Below, piece after piece: positions 152-62,088 of a DNA stretch of 64,000 nucleotides. The position numbers and the translations under genes were made by a program. Within the stretch, counting starts at the first letter, position 1. Each line of letters opens with the position of its first letter. The notes under the pieces were generated by a model, which saw only the letters and a program-made list of their open reading frames with translations, searched no databases and was not told where the DNA came from. The DNA is from Tautonia marina (lineage in GTDB: Bacteria; Planctomycetota; Planctomycetia; Isosphaerales; Isosphaeraceae): contig NZ_WEZF01000021.1 of assembly GCF_009177065.1 (NCBI RefSeq), positions 1 through 64,000 of the forward strand, given 5' to 3'.

Positions 152-279
152 GTGCGAGGGTCTGCGTCGGTGCGCTTCCGGGTGCGCGGCTCGATGCGCG
201 GTCGGTGCGCTGCGTAGGCAAGTCGTATCTCGTTTTCCAATCGACGGTTGAGGCCAATGGATCGGTTCGTTTCGGCAAT
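152..279 (+). repeat. Comb repeat copy 1 (GTGCGC array + TTCGTTTCG)
   Basis: GTGCG/GTGCGC words start at 152, 170, 182, 194 (ATGCGC) and 205, i.e. spaced 11-12 bases once the array is established. After the last word come 55 bases of unrelated sequence and then TTCGTTTCGGCAAT at 266-279. The same architecture recurs four more times in this window. No coding function or known repeat family is recognised. Confidence 0.7.
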
Positions 280-338
280 CGGGCGATGGGGATCGGTGTG
301 GTTGGGTCGGGTGGTCGGGCGGAACGTCGTTGCAGGCG

Positions 339-460
339 GTGCGATTTTGGGTGCGCGGACGGTGCGCCGTCGGGTGCGCTGGCGGTGCGCCTAGGCGAAT
401 CAACGCTTCTCACAATGGGATTAGGGTTTACGACAATTCCCTCAATTCGTTTCGTCGATT
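339..460 (+). repeat. Comb repeat copy 2 (GTGCGC array + TTCGTTTCG)
   Basis: GTGCGA/GTGCGC words start at 339, 351, 362, 374 and 385, giving spacings of 12, 11, 12 and 11 bases. Exactly 55 bases separate the last word from TTCGTTTCGTCGAT at 446-459. A second TTCGTTTCG lies shortly after, at about 478. The 55-base interior has no obvious similarity to that of copy 1. Confidence 0.7.
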
Positions 461-877
461 CGGTGTCCGGGATCGGGTTCGTTTCGCGCCGAGCGATCGT
501 TGGAGAAACGACGCTCGAGGTTAAGTGTGTTTCATTCGGAAGCGTGCTCGAAATCGGATTCGATACGCGCAGGGGTCTGCGGGCCGGGAAGAGGAGCGAG
601 CCCGGGGAAGGGAGCGAGCAAGGGCAGGGGACGGCAGCGAGCATGGTGACCGGTCGTTGGGTGGCTCACAAAGGGGCAGAGCAGGTCCGGTCGGTCGTCG
701 AATCAGACGGGTTCCTCGACAAGATCATCGAGAAATCGGGGGGCCGTAGTCACAAATTCCCCAGGTGGCCACCGATCAGGCAGGGGCCGGGTCAGGCAAG
801 GGGTGATCCGATTGCACGAGCGCGGGCTTCCAAGGGCTGACGGAAGCCCCCGGCTGGCCAGCAACCAGAACGACCCA

Positions 878-40724: not shown

Positions 40725-40944
40725 GGGTGGGAAAATCCGGGGGGAACGATTCGCCGGTGCTCCTTCAGAGTCGACCTTGCCCGATTTCCGAAGCCATGCC
40801 AGGATGGCGACGAAAACGAGTCACAGGCAAACGCCTTCGGAAGTCCCGGTCATCGTGACCCGGTAGGTCCTCGGAACGGGGGTCGAAACGAACTCTCGAC
40901 GCATTCCGTCCGGTGGGCTCGTCCCTCGCAGAGCCGGGGCCGGA

Positions 40945-41165
40945 TTCGACACAAGGTAGGTCTTCTGACTCCCGGGCTTGAGGCTCCGAGCCTTCTCATC
41001 GAGCTTCGGCGCCGCAACGCCGACACCAACTCGACAATGGCTGAAGGAGGGGTTAGAGCCTCTTGGAACGCCCGGTCACAGCGGCGGGGCCGTCCCGGAT
41101 TCTCACCGGGTTCCCTGTTCACCGTTCCCGCAGGAAGCAGGATCGGTCACCTTGGGCCTGTCAAC
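40945..41165 (-). ncRNA. Cobalamin (AdoCbl) riboswitch
   Basis: Read on the minus strand, the segment starts with GGTGACC..., then a G-rich GTGAACAGGGAA box, ACCCGGTGAGAATCCGGG, the core GCCCCGCCGCTGTGACC, and later a B12-box-like AGCCATTGTC, closing with GGGAGTCAGAAGACCTACCTTG. These elements, in this order and spacing (about 220 bases), are the hallmarks of Rfam-type cobalamin riboswitches. It ends about 220 bases before the DUF1559 start. No convincing T-run terminator follows, so control may be at translation or through an alternative fold in the leader. Confidence 0.93.
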
Positions 41166-41186
41166 GGAGATCGGATGGTAACGCCC

Positions 41187-60101: not shown

Positions 60102-60209
60102 ATGCGCCTCGGTGCGCCCGGGAAAGTGGGGCTGGTGCGCCTGGCGCGATTGCCAAAACATCTTTCACACCAAAAGTTTCCGCACGAAACCACGATTCGT
60201 TTCGGCAAT
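60102..60209 (+). repeat. Comb repeat copy 3 (GTGCGC array + TTCGTTTCG)
   Basis: ATGCGC at 60102, then GTGCGC at 60112 and 60135 (23 bases apart, as if one tooth were lost). Then 55 bases lead to TTCGTTTCGGCAAT at 60196-60209, identical over 14 bases to that of copy 1. The interior between teeth and motif is AT-richer (AAAACATC, CACCAAAAG) and unrelated to the other copies. Confidence 0.65.
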
Positions 60210-60258
60210 TCGCGGGGCCTGCCTGGCGGGGCGTTTCGGGAAAGGACCTGCTCGCCTG

Positions 60259-60367
60259 GTGCGCTCCTGGGTGCGCGTTCGAGTGCGCTTCGGCGCGTCT
60301 GCCAGGATCGGCGGAATCGCTGATTTCCAAAGAGGTTCCGATGATAACTCTTGTTCGTTTCGGTGAT
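60259..60367 (+). repeat. Comb repeat copy 4 (GTGCGC array + TTCGTTTCG)
   Basis: GTGCGC at 60259, 60271 and 60283 (12-base steps), plus a degenerate CGGCGC at 60291. Fifty-seven bases later is TTCGTTTCGGTGAT at 60354-60367. It lies about 150 bases after copy 3 and 170 before copy 5, so the three form a spaced direct array. Confidence 0.65.
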
Positions 60368-60428
60368 CTTGACCACGGGAAGACGCTCGGAGGTGGAGGG
60401 GCCATCGGTTCCGCGAAGGCGAAAGGCG

Positions 60429-60538
60429 GTGCGCCCAGGGTGCGCGGTTCAGTGCGCTGGAGGTGCGCCACACCGATTCAACGCAACCCTTTGTTGATCA
60501 TTCGATTGCGCCGATCATCCCAGGTTCGTTTCGGGAAA
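60429..60538 (+). repeat. Comb repeat copy 5 (GTGCGC array + TTCGTTTCG)
   Basis: GTGCGC at 60429, 60440, 60452 and 60463 (11, 12, 11). Fifty-six bases later is TTCGTTTCGGGAAA at 60525-60538. Its interior begins with CGATTCAACGC, similar to CGAATCAACGC in the same position of copy 2, the only interior similarity noticed. Confidence 0.7.
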
Positions 60539-61041
60539 TGGGGCGTCTCCGAGGAGCAATCAGTGCGGCCTGGATTTGCGATTGCCTCGGAGAGCGGGGC
60601 GATCGGGGAACCAGTGGGGGGAGGTGATCCCGAGCCACCCGAGGACATGATCGTCGAAGGTCGGAGGGCGGAGCATGCACCAGAGTCGGGAGCGGGTCGA
60701 TCCGATCGGGAAGTGGCGGACCTTGCGCCCGAGATCGGTGGATTGCCGATGCGGGCCGGGTCGGGGAGGGAGTCCCTCCCGGGGAGTCGGCATGATGGAC
60801 GCTCCCGGAGCCGGGATGGGAGTGGTCGAGTGGCCTGGGAGGTTAGACGCCTCGGCAATCCGAAGGTTCCCGGCGCCTCCGGGATTCCTCCCTCGGTGGG
60901 TGAACATCCGGGGTCATTCTCGCCTGGACTCATCTGTCGAATTGCCAAGGAGCGGCTCTCGATCGCAGAGAAATCGACCGAGGGGGAGGGGGGATCGGCA
61001 CTCCCCATGACCAAGAGTATCGAGGAATCAGGCCGCGGCAG

Positions 61042-61908
61042 TCACTCAAAATGGCGTTGGAGGGCGACGGCGAGGGGCTCGGTGGTGTCGGAGGCGGAGT
61101 CGAGCGTGTTGTTGTCGGCGGCCGATCGGGAGAGGACCACGTGGACGGCTCCCCAGAGGAGATCGTACCGGACGAGGCGGAGGGAAGACTCGGTGGCGTC
61201 GGGGTCGAAGCGGTAGCGGCGGCAGACCTCGACGTCGACCGAGTTCTCGCGTCGGCAGTTGACGGGGCGGGCCTCGTAGGCGAGGCAACGGCCGGCGGCC
61301 TCGTCGAGCATGGGGCACGGTTGCCGGAGGCGGGCCAGGGCGGCGCGGTGGGCTTCGGGGGTCGGGGACTCGGCGGCGAGCTGGCGGAATTGCCTCGCGT
61401 CTCGATCAACCCGATTCCGGAGCGCGGCGAGCTGGTCTGGGTCGAGGTGGATTCGGACGTGGCGGGCGAGGATCTCGGCTTCCAGGTCGGTCACGGCGAC
61501 ATGCTGATAACAGCAGTGGTCGCATCCGACCTGACAGGCCGGTTCCTGGATGATCGCGAGCCCCCGAGCCTTCCTTTCCTGTCGCCAGGCGTCATCCCGA
61601 TCGCGGACCCAGGCATCGAGGACCGGATACAACCATTGGGTCAAGGGCTCGTTCGGACGCTCCGCGGCGACCGACGCCACCCGCCCTTCGATCTCGGCGA
61701 CAAGAACCTCAAGGGACCAGGGATCGGGCGGCGGGAGCGTCGGGGAAGGCCGGAGGCGTCGGGCGCCGGGGCGATCGGGGCGTGCGGGGTCGGGTCGGCG
61801 GCGGGGCAAGGGGCAGAACTCGTGTGCAAGGTGTCGGGTGGTGTCGACCGCAGCGACGAACGGTCTCGGTGCGCGCTGCGCTCGACACCACCCCAGTACC
61901 GATTCCAC
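61042..61908 (-). CDS. YkgJ-family cysteine-cluster protein
   Basis: An open frame of 288 codons. The conserved part covers the last 220 or so residues: CQVGCDHCCYQHVAVT (about 134-149), then CPMLDEAAGRCLAYEARPVNCRRENS (about 209-234), the CxxxCxxCC and C...C...C pattern of YkgJ proteins that probably bind an Fe-S cluster or zinc. The start is unresolved: the longest frame begins with a GTG at 61908 inside a palindromic repeat (61836-61893) without a ribosome binding site, so the real start is probably a downstream alternative codon, for example a TTG at 61809. The N-terminal 50 residues (Arg/Pro-rich) may be untranslated. Confidence 0.75.
   Translation of the reverse strand: MESVLGWCRAQRAPRPFVAAVDTTRHLAHEFCPLPRRRPDPARPDRPGARRLRPSPTLPPPDPWSLEVLVAEIEGRVASVAAERPNEPLTQWLYPVLDAWVRDRDDAWRQERKARGLAIIQEPACQVGCDHCCYQHVAVTDLEAEILARHVRIHLDPDQLAALRNRVDRDARQFRQLAAESPTPEAHRAALARLRQPCPMLDEAAGRCLAYEARPVNCRRENSVDVEVCRRYRFDPDATESSLRLVRYDLLWGAVHVVLSRSAADNNTLDSASDTTEPLAVALQRHFE
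61836..61893. repeat. Large imperfect palindrome at YkgJ start
   Basis: GGGTGGTGTCGA (61836-61847) is perfectly complementary to TCGACACCACCC (61882-61893). Inner bases 61849-61855 pair with 61874-61880, giving a 20-position stem with one mismatch and an 18-base loop. The loop side carries a 21-base sequence (61853-61873) that recurs with one change at 61967-61987. Confidence 0.75.
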
Positions 61909-62088
61909 TCACAAATGGTGGTTTTTTTCTGGGTGGCCCCGGTTGCTCGTCAACCGGGGTCGCGGAGCGACGAGCGGTCTCGGTGCGGCCTCCCGTCGCC
62001 TCTCGCGGCTGCGCCACCCCGGTTGGCGAGCAACCGGGGCCACCCAGGACAACGGGGCGACGCATCATCTGAGCGTAGAAGCGGTACT
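61895..62088. repeat. Long inverted repeat, REPIN/MITE-like
   Basis: The arm at 61895-61960 and the reverse complement of 62016-62088 are related over their whole length. The inner 30 bases (61931-61960 versus 62016-62045) match at 29 positions. Each arm contains its own hairpin, CCCCGGTTG...CAACCGGGG (61937-61959 and 62017-62039). Two inverted hairpin units in one element is the REPIN layout. No transposase gene is present, so it would be non-autonomous. Confidence 0.7.

Follow-up and report, generated by a model that had tools for sequence, protein, structure and literature searches.

The centromere iterons of plasmids are direct repeats at 10-12 bp, and repeats of this kind (about 11-12 bp) are expected to load an oligomeric DNA-binding protein. 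CsrB-type RNAs sequester the RNA-binding protein CsrA through repeated sites. Among intergenic repeats, REPs are protein-binding sites and have been named as insertion-sequence targets (PMC2817692). Here we analyse an intergenic element in which GTGCGC words (teeth) form a comb ahead of the terminal word TTCGTTTCG, found in the window, by which we mean the whole 64,000-nucleotide stretch of DNA under study (contig 21, positions 1-64000, of the 7.07-Mb Tautonia marina genome, G000). A preliminary description of this DNA knew of no family with such a layout, and we came to the same result: ten cluster loci gave no match in Rfam, and no published description of the element was found in Rfam or in the literature on intergenic repeats in the family, a search of limited scope whose outcome is only suggestive.

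Three plus-strand units make up the main locus. Unit 1 (60102..60213) has teeth at 60112 and 60135, a decayed tooth (ATGCGC) near 60102, an interior dyad and TTCGTTTCG at 60196-60204; unit 2 (60259..60371) has teeth at 60259, 60271 and 60283, the interior and TTCGTTTCG at 60354-60362; unit 3 (60429..60542) has teeth at 60429, 60440, 60452 and 60463, the interior and TTCGTTTCG at 60525-60533. Two further plus-strand units form a far cluster: A1 (160..283) with teeth at 170, 182 and 205 and TTCGTTTCG at 266-274, and A2 (340..495) with teeth at 351, 362, 374 and 385, TTCGTTTCG at 446-454 and the same word again 32 bp further along (478-486). The five combs reported earlier are thus present as words, although the first copy has only two perfect teeth; the reported 55-57 bases after the array do not hold for the second copy, with 65 after its last perfect tooth, and the reported steps of 11-12 bases are indeed near one helical turn but span a wider 10-12 bp genome-wide. 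Altogether TTCGTTTCG occurs 8 times in the window, against 0.8 expected. A lone copy at 40884-40892 adjoins a cobalamin riboswitch (window 40938-41169, minus strand; Rfam RF00174, 86.8 bits). Separately, window positions of about 61895-62000 belong to a dispersed repeat of 65-105 bp that occurs many times in a second Tautonia genome (G003), with copies up to 97% identical and some of them inverted.

A search of the own genome for GTGCGC-N4-24-GTGCGC-N45-75-TTCGTTTCG, of the kind proposed earlier as a check, gave 78 + 19 = 97 matches, against 0 + 0 for the same pattern reversed. Because a unit with several teeth contributes each pair of neighbouring teeth as its own match, these matches correspond to ~66 distinct units. 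Relative to TTCGTTTCG, GTGCGC peaks at -61, -73, -84, -96 and -107, and with the reversed control at zero and the peaks fixed, both outcomes that had been named as telling against the element, namely a frequency no higher than chance and a broad spacing between array and motif, are excluded. Adjacent teeth are 12 (92 cases), 11 (68) or 10 (35) bases apart, or about 23 where one tooth is lost, and some units carry a second TTCGTTTCG 31-35 bp after the first. Units are intergenic and stand in tandem in one orientation, mostly 1-3 per locus (range 1-4); since gene calls came from a home-made codon model, gene boundaries are approximate. In two places in the own genome, ladders of TTCGTTTCG at about 33-bp steps exceed the ordinary copy number of a unit (contig 15, 1272-1415; contig 27, 60756-60900).

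The stretch between comb and terminal word had been taken for dissimilar sequence of constant length, a view that the alignment does not support. Once aligned with a correction for register shift (mostly 0 to -2 bases), it is not free sequence but contains a conserved imperfect dyad, CGnAA...TTnCGnCGA: relative to TTCGTTTCG, CGnAA lies near -42 to -38, TT near -33, AA near -24 and GTTnCGnCGA near -19 to -10, followed by TTCGTTTCGGGAAT. The candidate recognition site spans ~110 bp and comprises 2-5 GGTGCGCC half-sites, the CGnAA/TTnCG dyad and TTCGTTTCG, of which a further copy often follows at about three turns. An RNA hairpin in the interior was considered and rejected: the dyad is present in the consensus, but its pairs do not covary in Tautonia, and an apparent mutual-information signal was due to a shared 1-nt register shift. 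No Watson-Crick excess was seen across the dyad of the Tautonia units relative to column composition, RNAalifold returned 0 consensus pairs in the comb units, and the covarying conserved secondary structure that marks a structured regulatory RNA was not found.

Comparison between species supports the earlier view that this is not an ordinary decayed repeat, as the motifs are kept and the spacers are not. In orthologous clusters of the own genome and G003 (23 aligned pairs), identity is up to.9 in the downstream box described below and.71-.78 in the dyad half-sites, dyad positions and box both lying outside the search pattern, and about 50-60% in the spacers, near saturation. For the teeth it is about.72-.88, and the contrast between tooth and spacer is an upper estimate because the G003 loci were fetched by pattern, which favours surviving teeth; as a TTCGTTTCG match was required in counted units, its own conservation score is by construction. 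There are 24 syntenic locus pairs between the two genomes, and in G002, a more distant species, seven loci retain their orientation and the side on which the gene lies; most of the proteins beside them are 65-90% identical. In the gap of this far species that corresponds to the window locus there is a gene for a TetR-type regulator and no comb, and no clean empty site was obtained.

Across genomes, a sequence-only profile counted 94-104 units in the own genome, 87 in G003, 114-127 in G002 and 54 in G001, all of them Tautonia, against weak matches in other genera (0-4 at E <= 0.01, up to 7 at E <= 0.05). High-copy comb units are restricted to the genus Tautonia. A genome of another genus in the same family (G018) has related units with TTCGTTTCG at 34-bp steps and no comb. 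In a further such genome (G023), loci L286 and L289 carry a tandem GGTTCGTTTCGTCTTCCCG array with a 19-bp period. In G002, 66 loci are spread along the 8.67-Mb chromosome, and one lies on a 92-kb replicon; the comb units there (L165, G002 contig 5, about 57 kb) are probably on a plasmid.

Two findings go beyond the preliminary description, namely a promoter-like box and its link to a gene family. Read on the strand of the units, the box lies 130-629 bp past the last unit and ends in CAGTCAC; on the opposite strand it reads GTGACT-N17-CGATnAT, preceded by an A+T-rich stretch. Within 700 bp and on the expected strand it occurs at 84 of 111 loci, with the 17-bp gap in 80 cases, leaving about a quarter of the 111 with no box in that range, and none of three control placements (the other strand and two upstream) gave a single box (0/111 each). 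As the pattern was derived from these comb loci, its frequency there is no independent estimate; the controls show that the box is specific to its place and strand. Its layout resembles that of a sigma70 promoter pointing at the units: the 17-bp gap is within the 16-18 bp expected between -35 and -10 hexamers, and, as described below, the box also stands upstream of genes in the right orientation. For units 1-3 the candidate box is at 61010..61057 on the minus strand (GTGACT at 61045-61040, 17 bp, GATACT), from which predicted transcription would run toward the units, and for the far cluster at 718..765, again minus (GTGACT at 753-748, 17 bp, GATGAT). From this organisation we infer a working promoter.

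The own genome has 34 matches to the box, of which 33 are credible; 25 of these fall at comb loci, the other 8 before genes. Most of the latter genes encode proteins with an N-terminal motif of the type STGPRTxxGKxRSRxNAxKHGL (hereafter KHGL), while one encodes a DUF433-containing protein instead; relatives of the box-associated genes are also present in Tautonia sociabilis records. Each of two genomes has about 26 KHGL copies, and in most of them the box precedes the start by 115-170 bp. Where both motifs are found, the 3' end of the KHGL coding sequence carries a comb-type unit on the gene strand, and the distance from CGAAACGAA (or CGGAGCGAA) to GCGCACC is exactly 110 nt in nearly all genes with both. 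KHGL copies with CGAAACGAA use the arginine codon CGA there, though CGC dominates (303 CGC, 73 CGA), and two T. sociabilis genes have the site out of frame; because of these two features the nucleic acid, and not the protein alone, appears to be under constraint at KHGL 3' ends. In genus g16, two KHGL-like genes (n = 2) carry the unit in the opposite orientation. Since box and unit are common to both, comb loci resemble KHGL-type transcription units that lack the coding sequence. Among the representatives scanned, KHGL has no convincing Pfam or NCBIfam family. Its predicted fold has an all-helical core (pLDDT 76.7), for which only generic helical bundles and no informative structural relative were retrieved; in a predicted model, such a result does not amount to a new fold. 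The KHGL loci L178 and L179, which lie at contig ends and are almost identical, are probably a recent duplication broken by assembly.

In order to rationalise this arrangement, we propose that each locus is a non-coding transcription unit in which a dedicated promoter, GTGACT-N17-CGATnAT, would point at one to four tandem recognition sites of ~110 bp, a protein-binding array, probably of DNA, that belongs to a KHGL-linked regulon; we give this proposal an even chance of being correct. The array would most likely be occupied by a genus-specific DNA-binding protein in the form of an oligomer. A DNA-binding protein is favoured by the helical-turn steps, the dyad without covariation and the occurrence of the unit in either orientation, and DNA is favoured over RNA because the unit is inverted in the two g16 genes; we infer a protein ligand that acts on DNA. 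As the same promoter-like box and site bracket the KHGL genes, the best candidate ligand would be KHGL itself, a putative DNA-binding protein, or a protein acting on KHGL loci. Comb loci, as members of the regulon that lack a coding sequence, may act by titrating the protein or silencing the locus, or they may mark where transcription ends. The suggestion in the preliminary description that the layout suits sequence-specific recognition is supported. A wider version, in which promoter-driven non-coding arrays and a multi-copy protein family reading them form a bipartite system controlling its own dosage or a chromosome-wide state, is tentative and more probably wrong than right.

That units keep a fixed orientation towards the box would also be compatible with an RNA function or with transposon ends. 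Comb transcripts might, with their repeated unstructured motifs, sequester KHGL or another RNA-binding protein, the 3' copy in the KHGL mRNA serving autoregulation; the box, where found, always points at the units, and in KHGL genes the unit takes up the 3' part of the coding region, yet the absence of a conserved fold or covariation, tooth steps that suit DNA better and the inverted unit in KHGL-like genes of another genus make this explanation unlikely, if worth keeping in sight. Alternatively, box and unit could be the ends of a transposon-like element encoding KHGL, with comb loci as non-autonomous copies that lack the gene, a history to which the conserved ends with a variable interior, the sharing of both ends by coding and non-coding members and the comb-free gap of the far species would lend themselves. 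It appears improbable, given that no transposase family was recognised, no KHGL relics were detected between the ends, no recently duplicated, near-identical comb loci were seen, the 1-4 tandem units stand at one end only, 24 pairs are syntenic between G000 and G003 with seven loci common to G002, and the motifs have stayed above background for a long time since any insertion. Inside units, two different inserts were observed that have inverted-repeat ends and 9-bp target duplications (TTCGTTTCG; GCTTCGTTC) (L037, 6345-6519; L183, 2761-2895). Both sit in the TTCG word, so insertions may favour this word as a target; when 13-bp inverted ends with a 9-bp duplication were scanned for, these two and one in an unrelated sampled region were the only inserts flagged.

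A role in chromosome organisation, with combs as dispersed centromere-like or nucleoid-anchoring arrays for an iteron-type protein and an incidental promoter, could draw on the likeness of 10-12 bp direct repeats to plasmid centromere iterons and on the spread of loci over both the chromosome and the 92-kb replicon; it leaves the tight tie to the promoter-like box and KHGL genes unexplained, no orientation bias separates chromosome halves counted from dnaA, and we consider it highly improbable. The notion of neutral origin, by decayed repeats or by base composition in a genome of high G+C, is refuted by the reversed control (0 versus 97) together with the between-species footprint, and we give it practically no weight. 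Several other readings were tried and set aside. Units are not coding, with stops equal in three frames (54, 53 and 54 of 140 units) and distances between tandem units that do not keep to multiples of three. Nor do they act as a leader or riboswitch for an adjacent gene, as all four orientations of flanking genes occur. Replication-linked polarity was rejected on the half-chromosome split from dnaA, which gave no arm bias (p = 0.46); a second split gave p = 0.005, was chosen post hoc and is not relied on. As for KHGL pseudogene relics, tblastn without composition correction matched 79 of 115 loci, weakly and in low-complexity sequence, and with correction and cores of verified genes it matched one locus, itself a KHGL gene. 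A phage origin was dismissed after a search of 2.9 million viral contigs gave 20 matches, each of them single; one of these had a moderate profile score, and it shows no cluster.

What emerges is a high-copy conserved non-coding element with a promoter-like box and a partner gene family, for which the libraries searched gave no matching description. If our reading holds, it would offer planctomycetes a directly testable protein-site system, and an example of a protein whose C-terminal tail has its sequence constrained by a nucleic-acid site. Combs share with MITEs the presence of both ends in coding and CDS-less members, but differ in that neither terminal inverted repeats nor recent copies were seen, while their positions are syntenic and their motifs conserved above background. 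Like CsrB/RsmZ sponge RNAs, they are non-coding loci with a repeated site that is also present in a protein-coding mRNA, whereas they have no conserved RNA structure, occupy dozens of loci and step by helical turns. With iteron centromeres (parC/ParR, tubC/TubR) they share tandem direct repeats, here at 10-12 bp. Instead of a single site on each replicon, however, there are ~60 dispersed loci per chromosome, and these carry an extra dyad and TTCG sites. By analogy, REP/RAYT repeats appear to be the nearest system in logic. The comb consensus is ~110 bp, not a 20-40-bp palindrome, and has no GTAG/CGTC-type tag; its units are tandem in one orientation with a dedicated promoter-like box and many gene copies, and no Pfam transposase match, such as a Y1 tyrosine transposase, was found in the four box-driven proteins scanned. 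Both systems nonetheless combine many dispersed, clustered intergenic sites with a protein gene flanked by the same site, in the one case REP/BIME elements and RAYT, in the other comb units and KHGL.
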